Of a stretch of DNA of 64,000 nt, positions 14,739 to 36,235 are shown piece by piece. This DNA is from Pseudoalteromonas rubra (GTDB taxonomy: Bacteria; Pseudomonadota; Gammaproteobacteria; Enterobacterales; Alteromonadaceae). A model generated the notes under the pieces. It had not been told where the DNA came from and ran no database searches. It saw only the letters and a program-made list of their open reading frames with translations. Where the stretch lies: assembly GCF_005886805.2 (NCBI RefSeq), contig NZ_CP045429.1, positions 2,326,501 to 2,390,500 on the forward strand. The letters are read 5' to 3'. The position numbers were made by a program, and so were the translations under genes. Every line of letters starts with the position of its first letter. The first letter of the stretch is position 1.

Positions 14739-14792
14739 CAGCTAAGCTGTCAGTGCTAAACTAGTCGTCTACTATTTTTGATTGATTACACC

Positions 14793-15842
14793 ATGAGTTT
14801 TACACTTTTACCCGAGTGGGCAACACAAGATGCCGTGATGCTTACCTGGCCACATCAAAATACTGACTGGGCAGACATATTACCCCAGGTTGAACCCGTT
14901 TATATCGCTTTGTGTCAGCAGATCTCTCAAGTTGAGAAGGTCGTCATCGTAGCGCACAATGCCGAGCTAAAAGCACATATAGAACAAAAACTCACTGCAG
15001 CAGATGTCGACATGACACAAATCGTGTTCGTGGTTGCACCCTGTAACGATACATGGGCCCGTGATCATGGACCACTGACTACGCAGGATGCGTCAGGTCG
15101 ACTCTCTGTAAAAGACTTCACCTTTAATGGTTGGGGTAATAAGTTTGCAGCTGAGCTCGATAATCAGATTAATGCGCACCTGCACGCTCAGGTGGTTAAC
15201 CCCCAAAACCACTATGAAGCTATAGAGCTGGTGCTTGAAGGCGGTGGGATTGAAATCGACGAAGCAGGCACTTTGTTAACCACGTCTGAGTGCTTGCTTA
15301 ACCCAAATCGTAATCCGCACCTGACTAAAACCGAGCTAGAACAAAAACTGAGCGAGGTTTTAGGTGCCAAGCAGTTTCTCTGGGTAGACCATGGCTTCCT
15401 GGCCGGTGATGATACCGACAGTCACATTGATACGCTGGTCCGCTTTGCCCCTAATAATACACTGGTGTACGTCAGCTGCGACGATCCAAAAGACGAGCAT
15501 TTTGCAGCCCTCAGTGCGATGGAGACACAACTGAAGTCATTCCGCACGCCACAAGGCCAACCATATAACCTTGTCGCCCTGCCATGGCCTAAAGCCATAT
15601 TCAATGATGAAGGCGACCGTTTGCCGGCCACCTACGCAAATTATCTGATCATCAATGATACCATTTTGATGCCGCTCTACGGCGATGACAACGACGCCCG
15701 CGCACTGACTCAATTGCAAAGCGCGCACCCGGAGCGTACCGTCATTGGCATTGACTGCCTGCCTATTATTCATCAGTTTGGCAGCCTCCACTGTATCACT
15801 ATGCAGCTACCCGCCGGATTTTTAAAACAGGACCAATTTTAA
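14793..15842 (+). CDS. aguA: Agmatine deiminase
   Basis: A 349-residue enzyme of the guanidino-group-modifying (PPAD) family that hydrolyses agmatine to N-carbamoylputrescine and ammonia, the first step of the arginine decarboxylase route to putrescine. Visible are LPEWATQDAVMLTWPH at the N-terminus, NDTWARDHGP, the GGGIEID segment, WVDHGFLAGDDTDSHID and the catalytic cysteine in FGSLHCITMQ near the C-terminus. ATG 14793 fits the family start; an upstream TTG is unlikely. The stop overlaps the aguB start by one base. Confidence 0.95.
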   Translation: MSFTLLPEWATQDAVMLTWPHQNTDWADILPQVEPVYIALCQQISQVEKVVIVAHNAELKAHIEQKLTAADVDMTQIVFVVAPCNDTWARDHGPLTTQDASGRLSVKDFTFNGWGNKFAAELDNQINAHLHAQVVNPQNHYEAIELVLEGGGIEIDEAGTLLTTSECLLNPNRNPHLTKTELEQKLSEVLGAKQFLWVDHGFLAGDDTDSHIDTLVRFAPNNTLVYVSCDDPKDEHFAALSAMETQLKSFRTPQGQPYNLVALPWPKAIFNDEGDRLPATYANYLIINDTILMPLYGDDNDARALTQLQSAHPERTVIGIDCLPIIHQFGSLHCITMQLPAGFLKQDQF

Positions 15843-16732
15843 TGAGTAACAACACGTTGAAAGTCGCACTGGTTCAGCACAGTAATAGCGCTGACTTACA
15901 AAACAACCTGAATAAGTCTATTGCCGGGATCCGCGATGCCGCGGCTCAGGGCGCGAAACTCGTGGTATTACAAGAGCTGCACCGCAGCCTGTATTTTTGT
16001 CAGACTGAAGACACTGACCTGTTTGACCTGGCTGAGACGATCCCTGGCCCTAGTACCGATGTATTTTGTCAGCTTGCCAAAGAACTGAAGCTGGTAATTG
16101 TCGCTTCGCTTTTCGAAAAACGCGCAACCGGCTTGTATCACAATACAGCAGTTGTCTTTGAAGCCGATGGCAGCATTGCCGGTCAGTATCGAAAAATGCA
16201 CATTCCTGACGATCCGGGCTTTTATGAAAAATTCTATTTTACACCAGGCGACATGGGCTTTACGCCTATTCAAACCTCAGTAGGTAAACTAGGTGTATTA
16301 GTATGCTGGGATCAATGGTTCCCGGAAGGTGCGCGCTTAATGGCCATGGCAGGTGCTGATATGCTGATTTACCCGACAGCAATAGGTTGGGACACGCGCG
16401 ACGAGCAGGACGAACAAATTCGTCAGCGCGACGCCTGGATGATCGCACAACGCGCCCATGCCGTATCTAATGGCTTGCCCGTTTTAAGTGTTAACCGTGT
16501 TGGCCACGAAGCCGACCCAAGTGGCCAAAGCGAAGGGATCCAGTTCTGGGGTAACTCCTTTGTCGCGGGGCCACAGGGCGAGCTACTGGCACATGGCAGC
16601 GAATCTGAAGAACAACTTTTGGTGGTTGAACTTGATCAGAGCCGCAGTGAGTCAGTCAGACGAATTTGGCCATACCTGAGAGATCGTCGTATCGACCATT
16701 ATCAGGACCTGTGCAAAATTTACCGGGACTAA
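15842..16732 (+). CDS. aguB: N-carbamoylputrescine amidase
   Basis: A 296-residue nitrilase-superfamily amidase that converts N-carbamoylputrescine to putrescine, CO2 and ammonia. The Glu-Lys-Cys triad is seen in VVLQELHRSLYF, YRKMHIPDDPGFYEKFYF and VLVCWDQWFPEGAR. It is translationally coupled to aguA (TAATG), forming a two-step putrescine operon. An imperfect hairpin (16745-16768) downstream may be the terminator. Confidence 0.96.
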   Translation: MSNNTLKVALVQHSNSADLQNNLNKSIAGIRDAAAQGAKLVVLQELHRSLYFCQTEDTDLFDLAETIPGPSTDVFCQLAKELKLVIVASLFEKRATGLYHNTAVVFEADGSIAGQYRKMHIPDDPGFYEKFYFTPGDMGFTPIQTSVGKLGVLVCWDQWFPEGARLMAMAGADMLIYPTAIGWDTRDEQDEQIRQRDAWMIAQRAHAVSNGLPVLSVNRVGHEADPSGQSEGIQFWGNSFVAGPQGELLAHGSESEEQLLVVELDQSRSESVRRIWPYLRDRRIDHYQDLCKIYRD

Positions 16733-16847: not shown

Positions 16848-19800
16848 ATGGCAACAGCGCAGTGGAACAAACTTCCCTGGGTCAAATCACAAAAGGATAA
16901 AATCCATTGGGGCCAGCTGGTCGGTAGCAGTATGTCCATTGCCATCAGTGAAGGCGTCAGACAACATGATGCACTGGTTGTGGTGGTAACACCTGATACG
17001 CCAAGCGCATTGCGCCTTGAGACTGAATTGGGTTACTTACTGGGTGAAGACAAAGTTCATGTTTTCCCCGACTGGGAAACCTTACCCTATGATCACTTTT
17101 CACCTCATCAGGATATCATTTCGCAGCGCCTTGCCAGCCTGAATTCCCTGCGTCATCAGCATCAGGGCGTATTATTACTCCCTGTGTCCACGTTAATGTT
17201 GCGTACTGCACCACCTGAATTTATTTATGGCAATGCCTTACAGTTTAAGGTCGGCGACTCACTGGATGCACAAAAGCTCAAAGAAACGCTGGCTCAGGCC
17301 GGATACCGTAACGTACAGCAAGTAATGGAGCACAGCGAATTTGCTGTCAGAGGCTCTATTATCGACCTGTTCCCAATGGGCAGCACCACACCATTCCGGC
17401 TAGACTTTTTCGATGATGAACTGGACAGCATTCGACTCTTTGATATTGAGACGCAGCGCTCCAGCGAACAAATAAAGTCCATCGATTTATTACCCGCTCA
17501 CGAATTCCCAACCAACGACGAAGACATTGAGCGTTTTCGCATTGCGTATCGGGAAACCTTTGGTGCGAGCAGCGAACAAGACTCCATTTATATGCAGGTA
17601 ACCCGGGGCAACTGGCCTGCCGGTATTGAGTATTACCTACCGCTATTTTACGAAGAAATTGCGACCATTTTTGATTACCTGCCAGAACAAGCCGTGTTTA
17701 TGCACCTGGGTGACATCGAACAGGCAGCCTCCGAGTTTTGGTTAGACGTCAACAATCGCTATGAGAACCGACGGGTTGATCCATTGCGCCCCCTGCTGGA
17801 ACCAGTGCGCCTTTATCAGAACGTCGAAACCCTGTTTGAAGGGTTTTCGCGTTACCCCAGAATTCGCCTGAGTGAAGCAAGCCTGGGCACCAAAGCCGGG
17901 CATACCAATCTCAGCGCCCACCTGGTGACTGATGTCCGTGTTGACCACAAACAGACTGATCCCTACAAGCCACTGCTGGATTACATTACCGTACAGAAAA
18001 AGAATAAAGGCCGGGTGTTATTCAGTGTAGAATCGGATGGTCGCCGTGAATCTCTAATGACCTTACTCAAGCCAAGTGGCCTAAAGCTCAAAGAGTTCGA
18101 TAATTTTGCTGATTTCGCCAGTGCACGCAACGATGTAGGTCTGATTGTCAGTCCGCTCGAGCGCTCTGTCATGCTCGACGGAAACAAGCCCTTAAGTATT
18201 CTGACTGAGCAAGAATTGCTGGGTATTAAAGTTTCACAGCGCCGCCGTCGTAAACACAAATACGATCAAGGCCAGGATGCACTTATACGCAACCTGGCAG
18301 AGCTCAAAGAAGGCCAGCCTATTGTCCACCTGGACCATGGTGTCGGTCGATACCTTGGCCTGCAGACCATTGATGCCGCCGGTGTTGCCACAGAGTTTGT
18401 GACCATCATCTATGCCAATGAGGCCAAGCTCTATGTGCCCGTATCTGCACTACACATGCTAAGCCGATACTCCGGCGGAGAAGAAGCCTCTGCCCCGCTG
18501 CATAAACTCGGCTCAGACGTCTGGGAAAAAGCCAAACGCCGCGCCGCGGAAAAAGTCCGTGATGTTGCCGCAGAGCTGTTAGACATCTACGCTAAACGTC
18601 AAAGCAAACCGGGACATTTATTCAAACTCGACGGCCAGGCCTATCGCGAATTCAGCGATACCTTCCCGTTTGAAGAGACTGAAGATCAACGTAACGCCAT
18701 TGACGCCGTACTGGGTGATATGCAAACGCCACTGGCAATGGATCGACTGGTGTGTGGTGACGTTGGTTTTGGTAAAACGGAAGTGGCCATGCGAGCAGCC
18801 TTTGTTGCGATAAATGACAACAAACAAGTTGCCGTGCTGGTGCCCACCACCTTGCTGGCGCAACAACACTATGAGAACTTCCGTGATCGCTTTGCCTCCT
18901 TGCCCATTGAGGTTGGTGTATTATCCCGCTTTAACAGCACGAAAGAGCAAAAAGACACCCTCGACAAACTTGAAAACGGCCAGCTTGATATTGTGATCGG
19001 CACCCACAAACTGCTGCAACAGAGCATCAAGTATAAAGACCTGGGCTTATTGATTGTCGACGAAGAGCACCGCTTCGGGGTAAGGCAAAAAGAGAAGATC
19101 AAACAGCTGCGCGCCGACGTAGACATACTCACGCTCACAGCAACACCCATTCCACGAACCCTGAATATGGCCATGAGTGGCATGCGTGACCTGTCAATCA
19201 TTGCAACACCACCCGCAAAACGCCTGGCAGTGAAGACCTTTGTGCAGGAGCGCAACGATGAAGTGATCCGCGAAGCCATCCTGAGGGAAATTAAACGCGG
19301 TGGTCAGGTGTACTTCTTACACAATAATGTAGAAACCATAGATAAAACGGCAGCCGACATTGCCGCACTGGTGCCTGAGGCCAGCATTGCCATTGCGCAT
19401 GGTCAGATGCGCGAAAAAGAACTCGAACAACTGATGAGTGACTTTTATCATCAAAAGCACAATGTGCTGGTGTGTACCACCATCATAGAAACCGGCATCG
19501 ATATCCCGTCTGCCAATACCATCATCATGGACCGCGCAGACAAACTGGGCCTGGCACAGATGCACCAGTTGCGTGGCCGGGTTGGGCGTAGCCACCATCA
19601 GGCTTATGCCTACCTGCTGACCCGCAACAGCCAGACACTGACCAAAGATGCCGTAAAACGACTTCAGGCCATTGAATCACTTGAAGACCTTGGCGCCGGC
19701 TTTGCCTTAGCGACACACGATTTGGAGATCCGTGGCGCGGGTGAACTACTGGGTGATGAGCAGAGCGGTCAGATCCAAACCGTCGGCTTTACCCTTTACA

Positions 19801-20321
19801 TGGAAATGCTTGAGCAGGCTGTACAAGCACTTAAAGACGGAAAAGAGCCGACCCTGGAAAATCTGCTACAACAGCAAAGCGATGTGGACCTGAAAATTCC
19901 AGCATTGCTGCCTGATGACTATATCCATGATGTAAACATGCGCCTGAGCATGTACAAGCGTATTGCCAGCGCCAATGATGAAGACACGCAGGACGAGCTA
20001 AAGGTCGAACTGATTGACCGCTTTGGATTACTGCCGGATGCCGCGAAAAACCTCTTTAGCATTCAACTTTTGAAATCAAAAGCGGCTAAACTGGGGATCA
20101 CCAAAGTGGAAGCCAACCAAAAAGGCGGCTACTTTGAGTTCAGTGCCAGTACCACGGTTAACCCGACATTCATCATTGCTCTGATACAAAGCAACCCGAC
20201 TGTGTACCGCATGGAAGGTGCCAGCAAATTGCGCTTTAATATCGAAGAGAAAAATGGTCAGGAACGTTTAAAACTGGTAAATGCAATGATTGACGACTTT
20301 CAGAAAAAGGCGGTGGCATGA
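16848..20321 (+). CDS. mfd: Transcription-repair coupling factor
   Basis: An 1157-residue superfamily 2 translocase that removes RNA polymerase stalled at lesions and recruits UvrA. The UvrB-like N-terminal region (PDWETLPYDHFSPHQDI), the RNAP-interacting domain (about 480-550, HLDHGVGRYLGL), helicase motifs (Walker A GDVGFGKTEVA, DEEH box, TATPIPRTL) and the C-terminal TRCF domain are all present. Length matches E. coli Mfd (1148). GGAG lies just upstream of the ATG. Its stop overlaps csiV by 4 bp. Confidence 0.97.
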   Translation: MATAQWNKLPWVKSQKDKIHWGQLVGSSMSIAISEGVRQHDALVVVVTPDTPSALRLETELGYLLGEDKVHVFPDWETLPYDHFSPHQDIISQRLASLNSLRHQHQGVLLLPVSTLMLRTAPPEFIYGNALQFKVGDSLDAQKLKETLAQAGYRNVQQVMEHSEFAVRGSIIDLFPMGSTTPFRLDFFDDELDSIRLFDIETQRSSEQIKSIDLLPAHEFPTNDEDIERFRIAYRETFGASSEQDSIYMQVTRGNWPAGIEYYLPLFYEEIATIFDYLPEQAVFMHLGDIEQAASEFWLDVNNRYENRRVDPLRPLLEPVRLYQNVETLFEGFSRYPRIRLSEASLGTKAGHTNLSAHLVTDVRVDHKQTDPYKPLLDYITVQKKNKGRVLFSVESDGRRESLMTLLKPSGLKLKEFDNFADFASARNDVGLIVSPLERSVMLDGNKPLSILTEQELLGIKVSQRRRRKHKYDQGQDALIRNLAELKEGQPIVHLDHGVGRYLGLQTIDAAGVATEFVTIIYANEAKLYVPVSALHMLSRYSGGEEASAPLHKLGSDVWEKAKRRAAEKVRDVAAELLDIYAKRQSKPGHLFKLDGQAYREFSDTFPFEETEDQRNAIDAVLGDMQTPLAMDRLVCGDVGFGKTEVAMRAAFVAINDNKQVAVLVPTTLLAQQHYENFRDRFASLPIEVGVLSRFNSTKEQKDTLDKLENGQLDIVIGTHKLLQQSIKYKDLGLLIVDEEHRFGVRQKEKIKQLRADVDILTLTATPIPRTLNMAMSGMRDLSIIATPPAKRLAVKTFVQERNDEVIREAILREIKRGGQVYFLHNNVETIDKTAADIAALVPEASIAIAHGQMREKELEQLMSDFYHQKHNVLVCTTIIETGIDIPSANTIIMDRADKLGLAQMHQLRGRVGRSHHQAYAYLLTRNSQTLTKDAVKRLQAIESLEDLGAGFALATHDLEIRGAGELLGDEQSGQIQTVGFTLYMEMLEQAVQALKDGKEPTLENLLQQQSDVDLKIPALLPDDYIHDVNMRLSMYKRIASANDEDTQDELKVELIDRFGLLPDAAKNLFSIQLLKSKAAKLGITKVEANQKGGYFEFSASTTVNPTFIIALIQSNPTVYRMEGASKLRFNIEEKNGQERLKLVNAMIDDFQKKAVA

Positions 20322-21430: not shown

Positions 21431-21460
21431 AGGCAAACAGGTTTCCTTACCTGTTTGCCT
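21431..21460 (+). terminator. Terminator of the mfd-csiV-lipoprotein unit
   Basis: A 12-bp perfect stem (AGGCAAACAGGT with ACCTGTTTGCCT) with a TTCCTT loop, followed by CTTTCG and later T-rich sequence. Confidence 0.8.
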
Positions 21461-21578: not shown

Positions 21579-21608
21579 TTGACAATAGGTACACAGCCAT
21601 GCTTTGAT
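21579..21608 (+). promoter_or_regulatory. Candidate sigma-70 promoter of the RiPP-like gene
   Basis: A perfect -35 TTGACA (21579-21584) and a -10-like TTTGAT (21603-21608) are 18 bp apart, placing a transcript start about 37 nt before ATG 21652. Confidence 0.45.
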
Positions 21609-21651
21609 ACTTCACGAATTAAATTGCATACAACATACTTAAGAAGAAAGC

Positions 21652-21819
21652 ATGAACCATTTAAATCTTAAAACGAAGAAGCTCAAAAATTTGACCAGCA
21701 ACGAAACGCTTGCCAAACAAGCAACACGATTTATCGCAGGCGGCAGTTCACATACTAATGTGTGCATTAACTCTGTACAACAATGCAGAACCGGTGGTAC
21801 CGACGGTATGCCTGGTTAA
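21652..21819 (+). CDS. Putative RiPP precursor peptide with GG leader
   Basis: A 55-codon gene. The leader is rich in Lys, Asn and Leu (MNHLNLKTKKLKNLTSNETL) and ends in TRFIAGG. This is the layout of double-glycine 'natural product precursor' leaders described mainly in Bacteroidetes and some gammaproteobacteria. The 24-residue candidate core is rich in Ser, Thr and Cys (two Cys, three Ser, three Thr) and Gly, suitable for lanthionine, azoline or disulfide formation. A plausible promoter and an AAGAAG site precede it. No LanB/LanM, radical SAM or peptidase-transporter gene is nearby, so any maturation would be encoded elsewhere. The family match is from pattern memory. Confidence 0.6.
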   Translation: MNHLNLKTKKLKNLTSNETLAKQATRFIAGGSSHTNVCINSVQQCRTGGTDGMPG

Positions 21820-22777: not shown

Positions 22778-25414
22778 CTAGTTAACATCATAACGCCCCG
22801 TCAGCGTAGCGCCACTGAACATAGGATCGGCGCTCAGCAAGATATAGTAAACACCGCCACTCGTTGTACTAAAATGACAGGATTCACGGTTACCGACTTT
22901 CCAGGGACGACAGTCATAGTCTGTTTTACTTGCCTCGCTACCAAACTTCACATGCAAGTCCAGCTCCCCTGTTCCGCCTTTGGTGCTGAAGGTAACATTA
23001 GTCGCGCTAGCAGGCACCGTCATGGTATACATCAATTGACCACTATCAGACACATTAACAGGGACAGCGACCCCATTTTGCAGTTCATTTTCACCCGCAA
23101 TAGGCTGCTGAATATATCTGGCTAACAAAGTAGCATTTTGATAGCCCGTTTCGGTGCCAACCGCAATATAGTGCCAACCTTTTTCGATGTTATCTAACAC
23201 CAGGGTTTCATCATTACTGGGCCCTGTTGATTCATGGGTATAACGCCAGCCGTTATCCGGACGGCCATACTCATAATAAAGATCCGCATTGCCCGTGCCA
23301 TGGCGTAGCGTGATCTCCAGAGAAACTTTTTGTAGCCCTTCGGGCACGTAAATGGGGTACTCTTTAAGCTGTCGGGTATCTGTACCTGACAAACACCTGG
23401 CCTGACCCGCCTGTGTTCTGTCAGACGCTAACTGCACCCCACAGGCATTGATGCCAACCTGATCATTCCCCTGAATGTCATCAACATTCACAGGCTCCAC
23501 TGGTGAGGGAGGACGCGTGGTATCAATAACACACCCTGTCGACTCTACATGTGTCAGCCAGTTTGAAAACTGGTCGTCATACAACTTCTGAGCGACCCAT
23601 TTGTCTACCAGCTCAGAGCGGTACCGCGCGAAGTCCCCCTCCTTAAACAGCCTCAGCATATCAAAGAACGCGGCGTTTTGTTGCTCGTACATAAAACGTG
23701 TTGCCAGGTAGCCCCAGTCGTAGATCCTTGTTTGCCCCACCCCATACTCGTTGCTGAATATAGTGGAAAGTGAATAAGTCCCCTTTCTGGCCTCTTCAAC
23801 AGCATAAGGGTTACAGTTCTTCAGCGAGCTATATTCCGCAATCCCTTCACCAAACCAGACTGTACGACCTGCACTATTACTATCGTGAAAGTCGCCTTTT
23901 GAGATATAACGCCCTTCCAGATAGTGAACATACTCATGCCGCAAATTCCAGATGTCAAAAACCGGGCGCTCAGATACATGTTCATAAGCATAAAAGGTAG
24001 CCTGATCGCCCGGCGCGGACGGATCTCCCTCCCGATAAGTTCCCCCATTGCTAGTGCTGACATTAAACAGCACTCCACCGTATGTGACCCACTCTTTTTT
24101 ATCATTGAATATCACCATTCTGAGCGAATCATTGTCATCCGGTGTAACAGGGACCCGATCAGTGCGCAACAGTTGATGAAAGTGGTCTTCATGAGCCTTG
24201 AGGGAGTTACAGGTCCATGCCAGCTGCTCCGCAGTCATATCCTGTGCCCAGATAAACAGATTACCTGACGGGCACGTTAGGCGATTACCAAGTACCTGGG
24301 TAATGATCTCCTGTGGCTTATCACACACCGCGTAAGTCTCACACTGACGATTGTAATTGATCGATTCGAGCACAGCCAGGTAGAGCGTCCGTTCACGGTC
24401 CGTTTTTAGCGGTCCGTAACTATTCAGTATACGTGTGATCTCAGTACGTAACTTGGGTTCTAACTGGGCAAAGTGAGCTTGTTGTTCTCCACGATAAAAA
24501 TTAACCAGTTGATATCCCAGATTGAATAGGTGGTAATCGTTGGCTGACTTACTCAGCCAATTCAGGTTGTCATTAACGAAACCGGTAATTGCATCTATCA
24601 GATCATGTGTATGCTGTTGTGAACGACAGCTAGTATCACGCGCACAGTCATTCAGAACTTGCCAGAATAAAGGGGTTGCTGAGCGACCCCAGTCATTAAT
24701 ATGCTCATAGGACTCATCGTACCTGGCTAACAGACCAAGCGTCAGTGGCACCAAAAACTGCCCTATTTGTGCATTTTTAATGATGCCCGTCGCGCTGCGG
24801 ACCAGTTGTGCGTTGGTTGCAGTTTTATCAAAGAAGTGTTCATTGGCGTAGAGAATATTGATTGCACTTACCATAGCTTGCTGCGTCGTCGGGTTCACAA
24901 AACGTCTGAAGTCGTAATATGCATAGGCTTTTAGCCAGTAAAATAGATCGCTAAGATAAGCAACGTCTGTCTGGCCGTCATAATCAGCTAGCCGAGTGTT
25001 CAGCTCATTGACAACGGTCGCAAAATTAGCATCGGTGTAGGCCCCCAAAGTCAGGGTTTCAGGCCTGTCATTAAATAAGGTATCGATACAAACCTTACCA
25101 TGACTTCTTATCGCCTCTAGAAAAACAGAACCACTGAGATGACTGAATACCTCATCGGGGCAGCTGGTTGAAGTCGAAAGCGCATTACTGAAAGACATAA
25201 AGGCACGGCTTGCAAAAGGCAGTTCTGTTTTCGGTGTGATTTGCTTGTTACTGTGCATTGCGTCCGCTTTATACTCAGTATCGGCATGGGTATGCGCAAA
25301 GTCGACAGCGTTAAAGTCATTTATGGGTGTCGCTGTTTCTCTGTCACCATGGGCCCAGCCAGAGGCTGAGCTTAGAGCAATGACCAGAGGTGTCATCTTG
25401 ATTACTTTATACAT
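22778..25414 (-). CDS. Secreted microbial collagenase, peptidase family M9
   Basis: An 878-residue exported protease with a signal peptide (about 1-21, ending GWA). Residues about 85-400 match the M9 N-terminal activator domain. The catalytic region holds the zinc motif HEYVH (493-497) in LRHEYVHYLEGRY, with candidate third ligand Glu523 or Glu527 in WFGEGIAEYSS. After about residue 650 come two pre-peptidase C-terminal (PPC) beta-domains; the last carries YDCRPW and a CHF segment. The architecture matches Vibrio-type collagenases, which degrade native collagen and gelatin. It lies just downstream of a second secreted protease gene on the same strand. Confidence 0.92.
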   Translation of the reverse strand: MYKVIKMTPLVIALSSASGWAHGDRETATPINDFNAVDFAHTHADTEYKADAMHSNKQITPKTELPFASRAFMSFSNALSTSTSCPDEVFSHLSGSVFLEAIRSHGKVCIDTLFNDRPETLTLGAYTDANFATVVNELNTRLADYDGQTDVAYLSDLFYWLKAYAYYDFRRFVNPTTQQAMVSAINILYANEHFFDKTATNAQLVRSATGIIKNAQIGQFLVPLTLGLLARYDESYEHINDWGRSATPLFWQVLNDCARDTSCRSQQHTHDLIDAITGFVNDNLNWLSKSANDYHLFNLGYQLVNFYRGEQQAHFAQLEPKLRTEITRILNSYGPLKTDRERTLYLAVLESINYNRQCETYAVCDKPQEIITQVLGNRLTCPSGNLFIWAQDMTAEQLAWTCNSLKAHEDHFHQLLRTDRVPVTPDDNDSLRMVIFNDKKEWVTYGGVLFNVSTSNGGTYREGDPSAPGDQATFYAYEHVSERPVFDIWNLRHEYVHYLEGRYISKGDFHDSNSAGRTVWFGEGIAEYSSLKNCNPYAVEEARKGTYSLSTIFSNEYGVGQTRIYDWGYLATRFMYEQQNAAFFDMLRLFKEGDFARYRSELVDKWVAQKLYDDQFSNWLTHVESTGCVIDTTRPPSPVEPVNVDDIQGNDQVGINACGVQLASDRTQAGQARCLSGTDTRQLKEYPIYVPEGLQKVSLEITLRHGTGNADLYYEYGRPDNGWRYTHESTGPSNDETLVLDNIEKGWHYIAVGTETGYQNATLLARYIQQPIAGENELQNGVAVPVNVSDSGQLMYTMTVPASATNVTFSTKGGTGELDLHVKFGSEASKTDYDCRPWKVGNRESCHFSTTSGGVYYILLSADPMFSGATLTGRYDVN

Positions 25415-25448
25415 GTTGTTGTCTCATTTAGTTGTGTTGTTATATGGT

Positions 25449-25477
25449 GGGCGCAGCTAACCCTCAAGACTGCGCCC
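25449..25477 (-). other. 5'-leader hairpin of the collagenase gene
   Basis: An 8-bp perfect GC-rich stem (GGGCGCAG with CTGCGCCC) around a 13-nt loop lies between the upstream terminator and the collagenase start. It has no T-run on the minus strand, so it may be a leader structure affecting mRNA stability. Confidence 0.4.
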
Positions 25478-25483
25478 GATGGG

Positions 25484-25519
25484 TGTAAAAACAAATAAGC
25501 CACACTGGCGTGTGGCTTA
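25484..25519 (-). terminator. Terminator of the M43 protease gene
   Basis: A 10-bp perfect stem (TAAGCCACAC with GTGTGGCTTA, 4-nt loop) is followed on the minus strand by TTTGTTTTTAC, 11 bp past the stop of the M43 gene. Confidence 0.8.
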
Positions 25520-25529
25520 GGGCTAGGGG

Positions 25530-28500
25530 TTAGTGTGGGCGGCAGCCTGCTACGTCGTAGTCGACAACTATGGTGGCGCCGAGCGAATTGCCGGACATCA
25601 CCAGGTAGCCCCAGTAACGTGACTGTTCATTAATCTCATAGAACAGACACTGCTGATTGCCATCTTTAACGGAAACCGCATCATGGTCGCTGCCATCGGC
25701 TTTGGGCCAGTGGCCGTCACCGAAGAAAACGCGAGTATCGGCGGGCACATTGATTAGCGTGATTGCCACGGTTTTTGGGCCCCGGTCCATGCCTGCAAAT
25801 GAGTAGCCTCGGGTACTATTGATACAGTGGGGTTCGCTTGGCGTCAGGCGTCTCGTTGTTGCGCCATCTTGATCCACACACGCATCCATTAGTGGTTCAT
25901 GATCAACATTCACTGTCACTGTAGCGCTGGCTGTCATATTGTCATTGTCAGTGACGGTCAACGAAACCTGATAGATACCCGCCTGAGTGTAGCTATGATT
26001 TGGATTTGCAAAATTGCTCTGTGTACCATCGCCAAAGTCCCACTGATAGGCGGTGATCTGGCCAAATTCATCATCAGAACCTGCACTGCTAAATGACACA
26101 GTCTGACCAATCTGGATCTGTGAACTAAGTACCGCAGCACGTGCAACCGGTGGCTGAGGTGCTGGGAGAGTGTTAGAGCAATTGGCAAAGCTACACAATT
26201 CTTCCATGGCTGTTACATCTGCACTGTCTATTACACCATCACCATTAATGTCAAAAGTGCTGTCTAACGGCTGGTTGGCGGCAATGGCGTCGCGAACAGC
26301 ATTGATGTCATCGCTGTCCACGTTACCATCTTCATCAAAGTCGCCAATTGGCAATACCCTAATGATCACTTGCGTACTGCTAGTTGCACCTTTGTCGTCG
26401 GTCACCGTAAGACTAACGGGATAGCTGCCAGTCCGACTGAAATGATGAGTGATAGTTTCTCCGGTATGGGTCGTGCCATGACCAAGATCCCACAAGTAAG
26501 TTACTAGTTCACCGTCCTGATCGCTTGACTGACGTCCATCCAGTACAACCTGTTCCCCAGCTCTGACGGTCTGATTACCACCAGCATTCGCTACAGGTAA
26601 ACGATTTGGCGCTGAGTGGTCGGCATCACGGTGGATATCATAGTACGCTCTGAAGCGCAGCGATTCATAATCCTTGAACGGGTCAATCATCACGTTAAAC
26701 ACACCACCTTGTTCAAACTGACACAATTCGGTCTGATTTGGCGCCTCCCAGGGACGGCAATCATACTGAGATTTAGACACTGCCTGATTTCGACTAACAT
26801 GAATATCCGGGTCTCCTTTGTAACGCTCGACCAGCTCAAAGGTTACCAGAGACGCCGCATCCGGTACTGCAAACTCATAGTTATAAGTCTGCCCACCAGC
26901 ACTGGCCGCCAGGTTCAGCTCGTCAGCTAGGTAAATACGCTTACAGTCTTCACATAAAGGGGCATCTTCAGGAGATAGCTCAGTGATCACTGCACTGGCA
27001 TGTGCTGTGCTTTGATTCCCGGCATTGTCAGTAACCGTAAGGCTAACCGGATAAGTACCGGTCATTGTGTAAATATGGTCGACTTCTGCTTGAATGCTTT
27101 GCGTCCCATCGCCAAAATCCCACAGAAATGAGACTATCTCACCATCTGGATCGTTAGAACCAGCGCTTGAAAACTCAAGTGCGTGGCCTACCGCTTCTAC
27201 GCGCGATTGGCCGTTGATATTCGCGAATGGTAGTTGGTTTTGCGTATCTGCTATTTCATAATACACCTGAATGCTGGCATTGGTGTAAGTTTCAAAGGGA
27301 TCGATAATCACTTCAAAATCGCCTCCGCCCTCAAACTCACAGTATTCAGTGATCCCTTTCCAGGTGAAAGGTCGGCAATCAAATTGTGTTTTTGAAACCG
27401 CCCTGTCCTTGGCCACGTACATATCCAAATCGCCATTTCTCTTGATTGACCCATCTGCCATCTTCGGCCCCTGATAACCACCGGGGACGACAACCACAGT
27501 ACGGGTAGCCTCTTGCGGTACACTGAATTGGAAGTCAAAGGTTTTACCGGCACGGTCCGGCCAGGAAGCATTGTTCTTATTCGCCCATAGGCCATCGAGT
27601 TTAAACAAGGAATAACGATGCTCACCCTCATTGAGATAAGGATCTTCACCCTGGATCACACTCAGCGTGGTATCACTGTAAGCAGTAAAAGCATGAACAG
27701 AGGCAAAATAGGAGGAATGGACATCTGGTGTATCTACCGTAACCGCTTCGCTATCTCCTGCACTGTTAAACGAGATCAGGTCGGCTACCCATTGACCTTC
27801 ATCGTTTGCCGGTGGTGTTGGTACCTGACCTTTTGATACATACAAATCCGGGTCTTCGCTGTGACCATTGAGATAAAACAAGATATTGTGCGCGTTATAC
27901 GGCAAATTTATCTCAAAAGTCTCCACCGTATCTTTGCCAGCAAAAGGAATTTGATAACTGGCCAGTACCTCTCCCTGCGGTTCCACATCTAACCCCGAGT
28001 TACCATCCCACGGATGACCTGAGTCGCTGACATACTGAGACAGACCTGTTTTGATCAGGTTATCGTTAGACCACAAGGTGTTTCTGGCAGGGTTATGTAG
28101 TGCTGCAGTCATGCGAGATACCTGCTCACGCGTAAACATGGCGTAGTTGTCTGAGTAGTGCATGAAATTTTCGGTATTGGTAGCCTGCCCCAGACAGTTA
28201 GGTGCATTATTCTGCATTTCACTGGGCATAGACATCTGAGGTGTATCGCAGCTACGGTCTCCGGTTGAATGACAAAACGCTTCGTTTGTAATTGAACACT
28301 GCTTAGTTTCAAAGGTGTGGATCAGGTTAAGCCAATGGCCAAATTCATGGGTCAGTACCGAGCGAAAATTTTCACTGGTGTTGTTACCTACATAATGGCC
28401 GTTATAGACGACTCGTGCGGTATTTTCCTCAGTCATCGCTAATTCCGGATACCAGGCAACACCGGAATTAGTCTCCTTACCATCATCATACAAGTCATGC

Positions 28501-29171
28501 ATGAGATACACATTCATATAACTGAAGTTGTCCCAGGCATCAGCCTGTATTTTCGCCAACGTTTCATCATCATGATTGCCGTAGCCAGTCTGATCATGGC
28601 TATAGCGCACAATGCCATTAGTCGGTTTGCCCTGAGGGTCTTTACCCGCCAGCACAAATTCGATATTCAAATTTTCACGGATCGCCTGAAACTGAGGAGA
28701 GACCTCAGGTGAGTCAACCGACAACCCCAGAAAGTCATTATTTAACTTAGTCAGCGCATCCTGTATTTTCTCGTCAGTCAGACACTTCTGGCTGGAATCG
28801 CTGCAGTTGTAGGCGTCACCGTATACATGGAACACAACTGGGATATAGTAGCGCCCCGCCACTGCGGTGCTATTGTGCAATAGCTCGGGCGACAATGGCG
28901 TACTTTGTGCTGCTACCATCATGGGCTGTGCAAATGGTGCCATCACCCCCACAGGTTGCTTAGCTGCAGATTTTTGCAATTTTGCCCAATCCTGACCGTT
29001 GTGATCCGCGCCACAGCTGGGTATGAGCGTGTCCTGAGGCCACTCACTATGCGCAAGTTTCGCTTCAACTGCGTTCGTCTCGGTGCTGGCATGTTTGACG
29101 CTTGCATGCACGGTTAAAGGTGTAATACAGGCACTAAACGAGCATAGCCCCGCAATAATGCGTTTCTTCAT
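25530..29171 (-). CDS. Large secreted M43 metalloprotease with PPC-like, PKD and dockerin-like modules
   Basis: A 1213-residue exported protein with signal peptide MKKRIIAGLCSFSACITPLT to about residue 23. The pappalysin-like M43 domain (about 105-370) has the metzincin zinc motif HEFGHWLNLIH (His275, His279, His285) and the Met-turn NFMHYSDNYAMFT. Then follow two PPC-like beta-domains, a PKD domain (WDFGDGTQS), a third PPC-like domain, a second PKD, a dockerin-like pair of EF-hand loops (DFDEDGNVDSDD and DINGDGVIDSAD), a third PKD and a unique Cys-containing C-terminus. The PPC units share the signature SK.Q.DCRP with the neighbouring collagenase. It probably degrades extracellular protein, perhaps cell-surface or matrix-bound. 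Confidence 0.9.
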   Translation of the reverse strand: MKKRIIAGLCSFSACITPLTVHASVKHASTETNAVEAKLAHSEWPQDTLIPSCGADHNGQDWAKLQKSAAKQPVGVMAPFAQPMMVAAQSTPLSPELLHNSTAVAGRYYIPVVFHVYGDAYNCSDSSQKCLTDEKIQDALTKLNNDFLGLSVDSPEVSPQFQAIRENLNIEFVLAGKDPQGKPTNGIVRYSHDQTGYGNHDDETLAKIQADAWDNFSYMNVYLMHDLYDDGKETNSGVAWYPELAMTEENTARVVYNGHYVGNNTSENFRSVLTHEFGHWLNLIHTFETKQCSITNEAFCHSTGDRSCDTPQMSMPSEMQNNAPNCLGQATNTENFMHYSDNYAMFTREQVSRMTAALHNPARNTLWSNDNLIKTGLSQYVSDSGHPWDGNSGLDVEPQGEVLASYQIPFAGKDTVETFEINLPYNAHNILFYLNGHSEDPDLYVSKGQVPTPPANDEGQWVADLISFNSAGDSEAVTVDTPDVHSSYFASVHAFTAYSDTTLSVIQGEDPYLNEGEHRYSLFKLDGLWANKNNASWPDRAGKTFDFQFSVPQEATRTVVVVPGGYQGPKMADGSIKRNGDLDMYVAKDRAVSKTQFDCRPFTWKGITEYCEFEGGGDFEVIIDPFETYTNASIQVYYEIADTQNQLPFANINGQSRVEAVGHALEFSSAGSNDPDGEIVSFLWDFGDGTQSIQAEVDHIYTMTGTYPVSLTVTDNAGNQSTAHASAVITELSPEDAPLCEDCKRIYLADELNLAASAGGQTYNYEFAVPDAASLVTFELVERYKGDPDIHVSRNQAVSKSQYDCRPWEAPNQTELCQFEQGGVFNVMIDPFKDYESLRFRAYYDIHRDADHSAPNRLPVANAGGNQTVRAGEQVVLDGRQSSDQDGELVTYLWDLGHGTTHTGETITHHFSRTGSYPVSLTVTDDKGATSSTQVIIRVLPIGDFDEDGNVDSDDINAVRDAIAANQPLDSTFDINGDGVIDSADVTAMEELCSFANCSNTLPAPQPPVARAAVLSSQIQIGQTVSFSSAGSDDEFGQITAYQWDFGDGTQSNFANPNHSYTQAGIYQVSLTVTDNDNMTASATVTVNVDHEPLMDACVDQDGATTRRLTPSEPHCINSTRGYSFAGMDRGPKTVAITLINVPADTRVFFGDGHWPKADGSDHDAVSVKDGNQQCLFYEINEQSRYWGYLVMSGNSLGATIVVDYDVAGCRPH

Positions 29172-29352: not shown

Positions 29353-30252
29353 TTAATTAGTCAGTCGGGTAATGATGTTATCCAATCCTTTTTTTGATAC
29401 CTGAACTGCCTCCAGCTGAGTTAACCCATCCGGATATTCTTCCTGCTCCAGTACCAGCCATTGCGTTCCTCCTCTTGTGACGTTGGCGTAGATAACCGCT
29501 GACCAATCAGTGATATCCTGACCGATAAGGGGCTTCTTATTTGTCACAGTTGCAGGATATTTGGCTTTAAAGTGTGTCGTAATGGTTCTGTTCGGATAGC
29601 GATTGATATAAGCCACGGGATTTTTTCCAGCGTACTGGGCCCATCCCACATCTAGTTGCAATACAAAGTCTTCAGGCGTATTTGCAGCAATGTAATCCCA
29701 GTACGTGTTGTTTTTGTATGGCACCAGCTCGCGGTCATGATTATGAAAACCAAAACGCATCCCTTTATCCCGCATTTTTATCGTTACTTTATTTAGCTCT
29801 GCTACAAAAGATTCTATCGTCTCGGCCTGCTCTGCCCGTTTATCACTGGGCACTATTATCATAGGACTGCCCAACTGCTGATAAAATGCGACTGTTTTCT
29901 CGAACTTGTCGTCGGTTAAATCACGCATCTTCACGTGTGCACCACTTACCTCAAGACCAAGAGATTCCAGATAGCGTTTTAACCCCTGCGGATCATTGTC
30001 ATAAGGGCCAAAGTCTCCGGCAAACTCAACCGCATCAAACCCCATTGCCGAGATTGCTTCCAATGTACCCTTAAAGTCCTTCTTCAGCGTATGATTGACC
30101 GACCATAACTGCACACTAATTGCGGGGATCTGTGACCGTTCAAGACGCAAAACCGCTTGATTGTCTTCGTCGCGAGTGTCCAGTTGCCCGTTACATGCAG
30201 TTAGCAACCCAGCGCATACCAGCGTTGAGAGAAAGCGTTTAAAAAACGTCAT
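29353..30252 (-). CDS. Sugar phosphate isomerase/epimerase-type TIM barrel lipoprotein
   Basis: A 299-residue lipoprotein with signal and lipobox LLTAC (Cys20), Asn at +2. The body is a xylose-isomerase-like TIM barrel: IPAISVQLWSVN at the first strand, MGFDAVEFAGDFGPY, FGFHNHDRELVPY and LQLDVGWAQYAGKNPVAYI, which include the usual His/Glu/Asp metal ligands. Relatives act on keto-sugars, inososes or 3-keto-glycosides rather than phosphosugars. Being exported, it should work beside the periplasmic GMC dehydrogenase encoded 18 bp upstream. Exact reaction unknown. Confidence 0.8.
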   Translation of the reverse strand: MTFFKRFLSTLVCAGLLTACNGQLDTRDEDNQAVLRLERSQIPAISVQLWSVNHTLKKDFKGTLEAISAMGFDAVEFAGDFGPYDNDPQGLKRYLESLGLEVSGAHVKMRDLTDDKFEKTVAFYQQLGSPMIIVPSDKRAEQAETIESFVAELNKVTIKMRDKGMRFGFHNHDRELVPYKNNTYWDYIAANTPEDFVLQLDVGWAQYAGKNPVAYINRYPNRTITTHFKAKYPATVTNKKPLIGQDITDWSAVIYANVTRGGTQWLVLEQEEYPDGLTQLEAVQVSKKGLDNIITRLTN

Positions 30253-30270
30253 AGTAAGTACCTTTATTAT

Positions 30271-31983
30271 TTAAATGCGTCTGGCGGCGATTTCTTTCCC
30301 CGCATAGTTCACAGCTCTGACTGTTAATGCCATAAATGTCAGACTGGGGTTTTGTACTGCCGATGAACAAAAGCTCGCACCGTCAGTAACAAATAGATTT
30401 GGAATATCATGACTCTGGTTAAAGCCGTTGAGCACAGAGTCTTTCGGATCCTTGCCCATTCTGGCAGTACCCAGTTCGTGGATCCCTGATCCGGGCGGTT
30501 TACCATGCAGGCCGGAAGAAACATTTTCCAGGCCTATCTTTTCTAGCATTGTCTGGCCCTGCTCTGCGGCATCGAGCATCATCAATCGCTCGTTTTCTGA
30601 GAATCGACAGTTAATCTCAAGCTGCGGTATGCCCCATTTGTCTTTTTTAAATGCGTGCAGTTGCACACTGTTTTCGAATCTGGGAAGCATTTCTCCTTGA
30701 GCTCCTAACGAAAACTTCCATTTTCCGGGCTTTTGTAATTGTTGCTTGAAGGCAATACCAATACCGTCATTATTCTTCAACGCTTGCCAGTCCTCTCGAT
30801 AGGCACCAGCCGACATACCATATCCACGTAAAAATGGCCTTTTCGGGTCCGGCTTGAAGTAGAAATTGGGTATGTACAACCCACCCGGGCGTCTGCCAGA
30901 ATAAAATGAACCTTTAAAGCCCGGAATATCAGCTTTAGCCCAGGCGTTGTAGTTATGATCCATCAGATAATGGCCCAGCACACCAGAGCTGTTTGCCAGG
31001 CCATTGGGGAAAGTTTTGCTACGAGAGTTTAATAGGATCTGTGTTGACCCCAGCGTAGAGGCGCATAAAAACACCACTTTGCCAAAGTATTCGCGCTCAC
31101 TTAGGTCGTCATTGTCGATCACCCTAACGCCTTTCACACGATTACTTGCTGCATCGTAGATCAGGCTGTGCACAACGCTATTTGGCGCTATCTGTAAGTT
31201 TCCGGTTTTTGCTGCATCTGGAAGTGTTGAGCTTTGCGTCGAGAAGTAAGCGCCAAAGGAGCAGCCTTTTTGGCATTCATTACGCGCCTGGCACTGTCCC
31301 CGGCCCTGAGCCAGATGATGTGCGCTGGGTTTAGTCAAATGTGCCTGCCTGCCGTGGATCAGCTTTCTGTCAGGAAAGGCGGCTTCGAGCTGTTGTTTTA
31401 TATGTAACTCAGGCGCCGTCATATCAAACGGTGGTAAAAACTCACTGTCTGGAAGTTGTGGCAATGACTCTTTCTGTCCGCAAATACCCACATGACGCTC
31501 TACATAGGAATACCAGTGCGCGAGATCTTGGTATCGAATAGGCCAGTCATTACCAAAGCCATCCAATTTATTCGCATTAAAGTCAAAGTCACTCCAGCGA
31601 TATGAAAAGCGATGCCAAAGTAATGATTTACCACCTAACTGGTTGGCGCGGATCCACCAAAAATCAGTTCCTTTTGTCGTCTCAAATGGCAAATCTCTGT
31701 CATTACCAAAAAAGTGTTTGGTACTGTCATTAAACGCATAGCAATTTTTTTGAACATAATACTGCTGCTCAATCTCCGCCAATGACACTTTGCTCCGAAG
31801 CGGCTGTTCCCATGGCGGTATGCCTTCGCCAACGTAATCTTTACGATGCTCAACAACCCGCCCTCGCTCGATGAGCAGCGTCCTAAACCCTTTTTCACAG
31901 AATTCCTTTGCAGCCCATCCGCCCGTTATCCCTGAGCCAATCACAATGGCATCATACGCTTGTTTTGATTCTTTGATGTACAT
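30271..31983 (-). CDS. GMC family FAD-dependent sugar/polyol dehydrogenase, large subunit
   Basis: A 570-residue flavoprotein. The FAD-binding Rossmann motif is AIVIGSGITGGWAAKEF near the N-terminus, followed by LLIERG. The C-terminal GMC domain contains GIHELGTARMG and FVTDGASFCSSAVQNPSLTFMAL with the expected active-site His and Asn. It has no signal peptide, but the adjacent upstream gene encodes a small subunit with a Tat signal, the arrangement of glucoside 3-dehydrogenase and gluconate 2-dehydrogenase complexes, where the large subunit is co-exported. ATG 31983 has AAGGAG 5 nt upstream and is preferred over GTG 31986. The substrate is probably a glycoside or cyclitol. Confidence 0.85.
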   Translation of the reverse strand: MYIKESKQAYDAIVIGSGITGGWAAKEFCEKGFRTLLIERGRVVEHRKDYVGEGIPPWEQPLRSKVSLAEIEQQYYVQKNCYAFNDSTKHFFGNDRDLPFETTKGTDFWWIRANQLGGKSLLWHRFSYRWSDFDFNANKLDGFGNDWPIRYQDLAHWYSYVERHVGICGQKESLPQLPDSEFLPPFDMTAPELHIKQQLEAAFPDRKLIHGRQAHLTKPSAHHLAQGRGQCQARNECQKGCSFGAYFSTQSSTLPDAAKTGNLQIAPNSVVHSLIYDAASNRVKGVRVIDNDDLSEREYFGKVVFLCASTLGSTQILLNSRSKTFPNGLANSSGVLGHYLMDHNYNAWAKADIPGFKGSFYSGRRPGGLYIPNFYFKPDPKRPFLRGYGMSAGAYREDWQALKNNDGIGIAFKQQLQKPGKWKFSLGAQGEMLPRFENSVQLHAFKKDKWGIPQLEINCRFSENERLMMLDAAEQGQTMLEKIGLENVSSGLHGKPPGSGIHELGTARMGKDPKDSVLNGFNQSHDIPNLFVTDGASFCSSAVQNPSLTFMALTVRAVNYAGKEIAARRI

Positions 31984-31992
31984 CACAGCTCC

Positions 31993-32601
31993 TTAGTAGT
32001 ATGCCAAAGAGCCGAAGCCTGCTTGCCCGCGATAGGCAATCTGACCTTTGAATCCACCAGGATAAGCCTGATATACAAGCTCGTGACTGGCCCCGGTTTC
32101 TGACGTGTAGTAACCAAAGCAAACCAGTGCCTTGAGCTGTTTAAAGTCAGTACGCTGCTGCTCTGAGAAAGGCTCGGCTGCGGTTTCCAGTCGAGTTAAG
32201 TGAATAACCTGTTTTTCGCTATTGAGCTGTGCGAATGGCTGCCCGTATATACGCAGACTGCTTGTTTCGATCACGCTCAGTATCGCGCGCATGCGGGTAT
32301 GTGCATTCAGGTCGTAACAGTGGTACAAATGATGATCAATAAAATCATGAACACCGATATCACCGGCGCCGGCCGTTTCGGTCGCAGGGATAATGGTGTT
32401 ACATACCCTCTTCAGCATTACCAGCTGTTTATTACTCAACACCTTGGTCTGATGAGGTTCACCATCTGGTATAACCCGATAACTCAATGCGGCAGCCACG
32501 GCATTCTCACCAATAAACCCATTTCCGAGGCCAGCTCCTAAGGAGACAAGTACGCCCTGAAGAAAGCGCCTTCTTGACTGACTGGTGAGTTCAGCTGTCA
32601 T
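31993..32601 (-). CDS. Gluconate 2-dehydrogenase subunit 3-like small subunit with Tat signal
   Basis: A 202-residue protein. A twin-arginine signal, SQSRRRFLQG followed by a hydrophobic stretch (about residues 8-35), directs folded export. The mature part (SNKQLVMLKRVCNTIIPATETAGAGDIGVHDFID region, residues ~55-88) matches the gluconate 2-dehydrogenase subunit 3 family. It is the partner and Tat escort of the GMC subunit encoded 9 bp downstream. ATG 32601 has a very strong AAGGAGG site. It overlaps the MFS gene end by 11 bp. No cytochrome c subunit gene accompanies the pair, so the electron acceptor is unclear. Confidence 0.85.
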   Translation of the reverse strand: MTAELTSQSRRRFLQGVLVSLGAGLGNGFIGENAVAAALSYRVIPDGEPHQTKVLSNKQLVMLKRVCNTIIPATETAGAGDIGVHDFIDHHLYHCYDLNAHTRMRAILSVIETSSLRIYGQPFAQLNSEKQVIHLTRLETAAEPFSEQQRTDFKQLKALVCFGYYTSETGASHELVYQAYPGGFKGQIAYRGQAGFGSLAYY

Positions 32602-33796
32602 AGCAACCTCCTTTAAGAGTTTGGCGCCTGGTTTTATAAGTGCTACCCAATAGAAGCAACCCAAATGCAGCAACCAGACTGAGTGGGAAGTAACTCAGAG
32701 TAACTAAGGTATCTTTAACATTTTGAGTGCCCAAGGACTGCCCTTGCTCAATTAGCTGACCTATGACCGGGTTCCAGATACTAACAGCGAACATACCAGC
32801 AGCCCCCATTACTCCCAGCCCAAGTGCGCCGGTACTAGGAAGCTTTTCAGACACAAACCCAAGCATAGTAGGCCAAAAATAGGTTACTCCAAGGGCAAAA
32901 ATGATTGCCGCGTAATACACTTCAGCCCCCTCAGCAATAGACATAAATCGGATCCCAATATACGCCGTCACAGAGGACATTAGCAGCACACCCAGTGGGT
33001 TAAGTTGCTTAATGACAGGCCCAGCAAAATAACGCCCGACAGCCATAACCCCAGTGATCAGCGCCAGAGTGAGCATAGCTGACGCACCAGATTCTCGAAG
33101 TATGCGTTCAATCCATTGCTGGGTTAGCAGCTCGGTACTCGCCGTAAGCGTCATACACAACAGCATGAACAAAAAGAGGGGTGAAAACAGAGCCTTTAGC
33201 GCAGGGCGCTGCGGATTAGCAGGCGCCTGCTCTTCGGCAAGGTTACCGGGCAAACGAATAAGTAATGCGCCATATAGCAAAGTCGGAACAAGCAGGCAGG
33301 CAAACTGAGACTGCCAGCCAAGACCGAAATAACTCATTGATAATGAAATCAGGGACCCCAACAGGATACCGCCCGGAAACCAAACATGAAACCGGTTTAG
33401 CATGGTAGTTTGTTTGCCAGGAAATAACTGGGTTACCATTGGATTACAACCGGCTTCCACTGCGCCATTCGCCAGACCTATAAGGAAGGTCGCAAACATC
33501 AGACTGTAGAACCCAGAAGCAAATAAGGTGCACAATAAGCCCAATATATGGCCAATAAATGCAATCATGAGTAACCGCTTAGCGCCCAGCACTTTGTAAA
33601 GAGCACCACCGACGATTGTGGCTACAGGAAATCCGAAAAATGCCATTGCATTGACCCAGCCAAGCTGGCTGTCGGTCAACTGCAATACCTGGCTAAGCTG
33701 CGACAACATGCCTGCACGAATAGCAAAAGTCATCGCAGTCACCGTCAGTGCAACGCATGCAGTAATAAAGGCCCACTGCTTGACTTGCCCGCTCAT
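32591..33796 (-). CDS. MFS transporter (probable sugar importer)
   Basis: A 401-residue protein with about 12 hydrophobic helices. It resembles sugar MFS permeases of the FucP-like branch (LGWVNAMAFFGFPVATIVGG and FLIGLANGAVEAGCNPMVTQLFPG, with repeated Gly-rich half-helix motifs). In this operon it probably imports the oxidised or cleaved sugar made in the periplasm. Its start overlaps the upstream TIM-barrel gene by 4 bp (ATGA). Confidence 0.82.
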   Translation of the reverse strand: MSGQVKQWAFITACVALTVTAMTFAIRAGMLSQLSQVLQLTDSQLGWVNAMAFFGFPVATIVGGALYKVLGAKRLLMIAFIGHILGLLCTLFASGFYSLMFATFLIGLANGAVEAGCNPMVTQLFPGKQTTMLNRFHVWFPGGILLGSLISLSMSYFGLGWQSQFACLLVPTLLYGALLIRLPGNLAEEQAPANPQRPALKALFSPLFLFMLLCMTLTASTELLTQQWIERILRESGASAMLTLALITGVMAVGRYFAGPVIKQLNPLGVLLMSSVTAYIGIRFMSIAEGAEVYYAAIIFALGVTYFWPTMLGFVSEKLPSTGALGLGVMGAAGMFAVSIWNPVIGQLIEQGQSLGTQNVKDTLVTLSYFPLSLVAAFGLLLLGSTYKTRRQTLKGGCYDS

Positions 33797-36019: not shown

Positions 36020-36065
36020 TTACTTAATTCTGCTGTCTTATTTTTCTGATAACGCAACAATGGTA

Positions 36066-36095
36066 AATAGAAAGTGAATATATGCGTTAGGTCAA
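36066..36095 (-). promoter_or_regulatory. Candidate promoter of the sugar-oxidation operon
   Basis: On the minus strand, -35 TTGACC (36095-36090) and -10 TCTATT (36071-36066) are 18 bp apart. The -35 box shares two bases with the proximal operator repeat, as at activator-dependent AraC-family promoters. Confidence 0.45.
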
Positions 36096-36122
36096 AATCG
36101 GACAATAATGCAATAAAATCGG
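36094..36122. promoter_or_regulatory. Direct-repeat operator for the AraC-family regulator
   Basis: AAAATCGG occurs at 36094-36101 and again at 36115-36122. The repeat period is exactly 21 bp (two helical turns), and each copy is followed within 1-2 bases by ACA. Direct half-sites spaced this way in a divergent promoter region are the usual layout for AraC-family binding. The binding protein is inferred to be the product of the gene at 36236. Confidence 0.6.
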
Positions 36123-36235
36123 CGACATTGTATTCAAAGAAGACACCTTAAGGCCAAAATACTTTAAATTTAGTGACTTAAAATCATGTATATTGTATAA
36201 ATAAAAAGAAGTAAAAAATAATAGGCTACAAGGCT

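Follow-up and report, generated by a model that had tools for sequence, protein, structure and literature searches.

Class I lanthipeptides whose leaders end in GG have been described from the Bacteroidetes, where such leaders carry an LxLxKx5L box and occur in clusters with a C39 domain (Walker 2020, PMC7268733). Class I lanthipeptides of Pseudoalteromonas are also already in print. The pseudorosins A–C are reported to be class I lanthipeptides of P. flavipulchra S16 with the dehydratase PsfB (Wang 2023, cited in PMC12819058), the pci cluster of Pseudoalteromonas citrea contains a class I lanthipeptide precursor that was modified on expression in E. coli (PMC9993889), and 13 strains near P. 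luteoviolacea have been noted to contain a "glycosylated lantipeptide" pathway (PMC5069768). In the prochlorosin and synechococsin systems, a single promiscuous synthetase (ProcM or SyncM) is reported to have 29 and 79 precursors, respectively, whose genes may be dispersed over the genome (PMC10783134). A term search of the main text of a 2025 review on lanthipeptide enzyme promiscuity (PMC12328550) returned neither Pseudoalteromonas nor PsfB. Furthermore, no report of a dispersed class I repertoire served by one cassette was found in searches of an open-licence library, and the 2023 pseudorosin paper may contain one.

The gene considered here belongs to Pseudoalteromonas rubra, whose genome consists of two replicons (5.94 Mb), and lies in a window (the whole stretch of DNA analysed, 64,000 nucleotides) corresponding to C1:2326501-2390500. 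It encodes a peptide of 55 residues (the 55-mer) that is very probably the precursor (LanA) of a class I lanthipeptide, unlinked to its maturation enzymes, which are encoded far away and act in trans. An earlier note on this DNA had read the peptide as a GG-leader RiPP precursor, and this reading is supported by a leader family in the same genome, by the co-occurrence of such leaders with LanB and by the arrangement of Ser/Thr and Cys in the cores.

Similar to the Bacteroidetes class I systems (PMC7268733), the family described below has an L-x-L-x-K box in many members, a GG end, LanB and LanC, and a C39 domain. In contrast to those clusters, 2.2 Mb separate the precursor gene from the enzyme genes, and no NCBIfam model matches the 55-mer. 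The pseudorosins share genus and class with the 55-mer, and PsfB may be an orthologue of the LanB in this genome. The pci system is likewise of the same genus and class; it is a biosynthetic gene cluster, in contrast to the scattered precursor seen here (PMC9993889). The prochlorosins and synechococsins resemble the present system in having many scattered precursors with a conserved GG leader and a variable core; they differ in being class II LanM systems of cyanobacteria with Nif11-type leaders, whereas class I LanB and LanC and a different leader are found here. The system of the 55-mer is best read as the class I equivalent of what is seen with the prochlorosins.

The putative precursor gene and its orthologues

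The gene occupies 21652..21819 on the plus strand (ATG at 21652, stop TAA at 21817-21819) and encodes MNHLNLKTKKLKNLTSNETLAKQATRFIAGGSSHTNVCINSVQQCRTGGTDGMPG. The leader (residues 1-31, 21652..21744, plus strand) matches leader profile A2 and ends in IAGG at residues 28-31, and the 24-residue core (21745..21816, plus strand) is SSHTNVCINSVQQCRTGGTDGMPG, with two Cys, three Ser and three Thr. Both Cys have a Ser/Thr upstream, as read from the sequence and from the pairing test described below. The 55-codon frame, the IAGG end and the composition of the core had all been pointed out in the earlier note and are confirmed in the sequence.

The same note had described promoter-like boxes upstream of the gene. 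The boxes TTGACA (21579-21584) and TTGATA (21604-21609) are indeed present on the plus strand, and TTGACA is kept in all four orthologous loci; however, they are separated by a spacer of 19 and are absent from the output of a sigma-70 consensus scan, which allowed spacers of 16-18. The boxes are consequently weak evidence, and a promoter assigned through the consensus scan was rejected for this gene. Upstream of 30 paralogues, no shared promoter motif was found among exact 6-8-mers, as nothing was clearly above shuffles. Upstream, the gene is flanked by a small lipoprotein-like gene followed by a terminator-like hairpin (21431..21460, plus strand, consensus match only), which would keep the lipoprotein and 55-mer transcripts apart. 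On the other side lies a 153-aa ORF whose SpoIIAA-like match falls slightly short of the cut-off.

Close homologues of the 55-mer are found in four of 108 genomes of the genus, the present genome included, with 93-98% identity in the three others; near-identical loci occur in Pseudoalteromonas sp. OOF1S-7 and P. rubra S2471. All four orthologues share one place, after csiV and the lipoprotein gene. Among the nine close genomes compared, the remaining five have different DNA, or almost none, in this slot, and no precursor was found there in five more distant genomes (plus-strand ORFs of at least 25 aa, approximately 1.5 kb). The ORF is 0.87-0.98 identical in the six pairs among the four loci, whereas identity is 0.60-0.76 over the upstream 200 bp and 0.51-0.83 over the downstream 150 bp. 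Five pairs have an uncorrected dN/dS of 0.09-0.11 and one has 0; these estimates are interdependent, as the four orthologues form two close pairs, and the value for the closest pair that includes the present genome is based on only four changes. Between the two genome pairs, leader and core behave alike, each with 7-8 synonymous to 2-3 non-synonymous changes, and the core is nearly constant among true orthologues.

The orthologues of the gene evolve under purifying selection. Occupation of the locus in only four of nine close genomes would fit a relic, i.e. a stray precursor copy whose expression or use has been lost, and this explanation is very improbable given that the ORF is more conserved than its flanks, has a dN/dS of about 0.1 and is intact in all four loci. 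Taken together, the identity above that of the flanks, the low dN/dS and the slot comparison indicate that this is a genuine gene under selection, acquired or lost in one piece.

The leader family and its cores

A protein search with the single 55-mer sequence returned only one cluster, a near-identical orthologue, and for this reason alignments were used as queries. In its own genome, the 55-mer by itself weakly matched 17 other places (E<=10). Profile A2, built from an alignment of 17 leaders, matched 32 places in the genome at E<=10 and 31 at E<=0.01, the 55-mer included. The gene, called an orphan in the earlier note, is therefore not one with respect to family, and probably belongs to a set of some thirty related peptide genes dispersed across the genome. 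Thirty peptides were extracted, with the two weakest of the 32 matches (C1:1489255 and C1:1381875) kept outside the core statistics. Their genes begin with ATG, often behind an AGGA-like ribosome site, and encode cores of 19-40 residues joined to the leader M-K-L-x-L-x-K-K-x-L-K-x-L ... Q-T-P-x-(I/V)-A-G-G. The boundary between leader and core was set by a simple GG/GA/AG rule that is ambiguous by 1-2 residues in some paralogues. Mean pairwise identity among the 30 peptides is 0.49 for leaders, 0.25 for cores and 0.23 for shuffled cores; the combination of a conserved leader with a variable core, on which the earlier proposal depended, is therefore present.

The 55-mer had no listed match to any NCBIfam model at E<=10, nor to any Pfam family at E<=0.1. 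Consequently, the suggested placement in a TIGR04149-like "natural product precursor" family was not borne out, and membership in TIGR04149 or any other NCBIfam precursor model was rejected. Against the NCBIfam lanthipeptide leader models L1a and L1b (NF038153, NF038158), the best of ten paralogues reached 17.6 bits (cut-off 22) and 15.6 bits (cut-off 27), and neither model was listed for the 55-mer. By eye, many of the 30 peptides conform to an FxLD or LxLxKx5L leader motif; of the latter, the 55-mer has L4, L6 and L14, with T8 where Lys is expected. The 55-mer does not group with the prochlorosins, as it has no Nif11-type Pfam match and the genome's two LanC-domain matches represent a LanC and a class III LanKC, not a class II LanM. 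Using an alignment of 12 family sequences, 45 database proteins were retrieved, of which the named ones are mostly "hypothetical" or "uncharacterized", with single entries called "Class I lanthipeptide", "Bacteriocin" and "Natural product".

The cores of the 30 peptides are rich in Cys, which makes up 11.2% of core residues vs 0.1% of leader residues; Cys is present in 28 of the 30 cores, and 27 contain at least two. A lanthionine core would need a Ser/Thr for each Cys, and in most known rings this residue lies upstream of the Cys. This arrangement was probed with a greedy pairing test that assigns to each Cys a distinct Ser/Thr located 2-8 residues upstream, using shuffled cores and a mirrored test as controls. 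In the 30 cores, 88 of 91 Cys were paired, compared with 49.9 (sd 4.1) in shuffles, none of 5000 of which reached 88, and 57 in the mirrored test. The observed value exceeded both the shuffle mean and the mirror in all five other distance windows, with the smallest gap to the mirror in the 2-5 window (66 vs 54 of 91 Cys). A similar result was obtained for nine distinct cores from other genomes (29 fetched peptides less those at least 0.7 similar to each other or to cores of the present genome), in which 28 of 32 Cys were paired (shuffles 17.7, sd 2.5, 0/5000; mirror 20). Additionally, a core encoded at the cassette end in G098, another Pseudoalteromonas genome (SPGTQVCIHTPQIQCRT), aligns with the 55-mer core (SSHTNVCINSVQ-QCRT), with a score reached by 3 of 20000 shuffles for a pair that was picked by eye before testing.

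Two of the three peptides of the genome nearest to the 55-mer are free of Cys, and thioether rings are therefore impossible for some family members; such peptides might undergo dehydration alone, have fallen out of use or mature in another way. A Cys-less pair on C1 (L009:3026-3172 and 4656-4802; leader matches 1033031 and 1034655) is 1.6 kb apart; the two cores are alike (..THSITQ..), repetitive reading frames lie between the genes, and the second is followed by a 185-aa ORF that is HlyD-like by eye only.

The enzyme cassette and its distribution

The earlier note had called for a whole-genome search for LanB, LanC and C39 genes, and this search revealed one cassette at ~C1:4543400-4551400, beside a glmU-like gene, that encodes LanB (1049 aa), LanC (406 aa), a C39-ABC exporter (714 aa) and HlyD (414 aa). 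LanB matches PF04738 (448.1 bits) and PF14028 (206.9 bits), i.e. the glutamylation and elimination domains, and aligns to the solved LanB-type dehydratases 9g04 (residues 7-879) and 5ehk (45-879), as well as to NisB (4wd9) over 483-893. LanC matches PF05147 (130.5 bits) and contains WCYG and CHG, which we take to be the expected zinc ligands. The exporter is the only C39 match of the genome and contains ECGLA, presumably as in C39 peptidases. Of the two possibilities raised earlier for the modifying system, action in trans is supported, with the cassette 2.2 Mb away; that the system is undescribed is not, as it is likely an ordinary LanB-LanC-C39 cassette.

Positional evidence differs between this genome and others. 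No precursor was found inside the cassette by the leader profile and a pattern scan of the region, and none of the 31 leader matches lies within 240 kb of LanB with C1 taken as circular. The gene of the 55-mer thus has no positional link to the cassette in its own genome, which counts against the lanthipeptide reading, as do the missing NCBIfam leader match, the T8 of the 55-mer, its Cys-free near relatives and the lack of a common promoter motif. Linkage of this leader type to LanB and LanC is found for the family elsewhere. Peptides were read for three divergent leader genes beside LanC in G041 and for one each in G060 and G045, for two beside LanC in G444 (another genus) and, in G203 (another family), for one flanked by LanC and the C39 transporter; in G016 and G360, leader genes adjoin LanC by coordinates only. 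In G098, a leader gene (L146:9236) sits at the cassette end between hlyD-like and glmU-like genes, the latter presumably glmU. Position was compared in ten LanB genomes, namely the present one plus nine others selected by low contig number and by the length of the match list. By hand count, only 11 of their 179 leader matches are within 10 kb of LanB and the rest are scattered; eight of the ten genomes have at least one such match, with none in G107 or the present genome. In G031, six leader-family matches form a tandem run (C1:4876099-4877316) approximately 25 kb from LanB and near a second C39 transporter, as if precursor genes had multiplied there in a burst.

Across the 108 genomes of the genus, leader matches (E<=0.01) are found in 52, with 1-71 in each, LanB and LanC domains in 51 each, and C39 in 81. 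All 51 LanB genomes contain leaders (1 to 71, median 20; at least five in 47), as opposed to one of the 57 genomes lacking LanB, in which the match is marginal (G022, E 0.0047). The Fisher p of this co-occurrence is 2.5e-30, which is not a probability of independent events because the genomes are related; at the genus level, the co-occurrence is confounded by descent. A single LanB match is present in 47 of the 51 genomes, with two full matches in G021 and G076 and weak extra pieces in G051 and G032. In an order-wide sample of 394 genomes, at least four of which are Pseudoalteromonas (G012, G028, G089 and the present genome, G000), leaders occur in five and LanB in eight, and all five leader genomes have LanB; two of the five (G000 and G012) also belong to the genus set. 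The LanB of G203 is in two pieces on two contigs, and the three genomes with LanB only have weak or divergent matches (72, 67 and 18 bits).

These distributions bear on the identity of the modifying enzyme. The 55-mer might instead be a GG-leader peptide that stays unmodified or acquires disulfide bonds only, and is exported and cleaved through the C39 domain in the manner of a bacteriocin or microcin, with LanB and LanC serving other peptides only. The GG leader, the single C39 exporter and the two Cys-free members in this genome would fit such a peptide; however, leaders track LanB (51/51) and not C39 (81/108 genomes), and Ser/Thr lies upstream of Cys in the cores (88/91 vs mirror 57), making this an improbable explanation. 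Modification by LanKC, a class III synthetase encoded on the second replicon (LanC domain at C2:175119), is less probable still. Its gene exceeds the NCBIfam cut-off (622.4 bits vs 575) and three leader matches are located within about 45 kb (C2:185407, 212902 and 219677), but only 10 of 108 genomes have a listed LanC domain in a frame of LanKC size (890-931 aa), whereas all 51 genomes with LanB have leaders, and the linked leader genes elsewhere are at LanB/LanC cassettes. LanKC was accordingly rejected as the enzyme of the 55-mer. Its surroundings (L050:2146-9756), which include a prolyl-oligopeptidase-type peptidase and an ABC transporter with no C39 match, are a separate lanthipeptide locus.

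For the class I lanthipeptide reading, we infer the following relation of enzyme and substrate in this strain. First, the leader, presumed to be both the LanB recognition and the C39 cleavage signal, would be recognized by the single LanB of the genome. Next, LanB would use glutamyl-tRNA to give dehydrated Ser/Thr in the core, and LanC would add the Cys thiols to form thioether rings, predicted to join S2 or T4 to C7 and S10 to C14 (core numbering). The calculated [M+H]+ of the core is 2449.065 without modification and would fall to 2413.044 with two dehydrations and to 2341.002 with six. Finally, the C39 domain of the exporter would cut after GG and the product would be secreted with the help of HlyD; any bioactivity, be it antibacterial or in signalling, is a guess. 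The cassette would be common to approximately 30 other precursors scattered over both replicons. More generally, it is likely that one general LanB-LanC-C39 cassette matures a genome-dispersed precursor library in Pseudoalteromonas, with genes gained and lost singly to give strain-specific lanthipeptide sets. If this is correct, cluster-based genome mining, in which precursors are sought beside the enzyme genes, misses most lanthipeptides of Pseudoalteromonas, because so few leader matches in the ten genomes are close to LanB. Furthermore, LanB and LanC of Pseudoalteromonas would be a naturally broad-substrate class I pair, and the question of how one pair handles many cores could therefore be studied outside class II with native substrates ready.

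The surroundings of the gene in the window

The earlier note had stated that no maturase or exporter lies within 20 kb of the gene, and this holds for lanthipeptide enzymes and C39, as the genome's single LanB match, its two LanC-domain matches and its single C39 match all fall outside the window. Pfam scans covering 29 further ORFs from 2878 to 41222 (excluding small ORFs and a 1157-aa ORF at 16848-20321, which we take to be Mfd) revealed no RiPP enzyme. A gene of the Porphyromonas-type peptidyl-arginine deiminase family is followed by a carbon-nitrogen hydrolase gene at 14778-16732, a pair presumably as in agmatine/putrescine pathways, and the deiminase-family gene is not taken as a peptide maturase. 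Two adjacent genes at 22778-29171 encode secreted-type metallopeptidases, an M9 collagenase with PPC and an M43 enzyme with PKD domains, and an MFS transporter is encoded near the precursor gene at 32591-33796; nothing ties either the metallopeptidases or the transporter to the 55-mer. The region 29353-36979, which in addition to the MFS transporter encodes two xylose-isomerase-like TIM barrels, a GMC oxidoreductase, gluconate dehydrogenase subunit 3, a GFO/IDH/MocA dehydrogenase and an AraC-type regulator, is a probable sugar oxidation locus.
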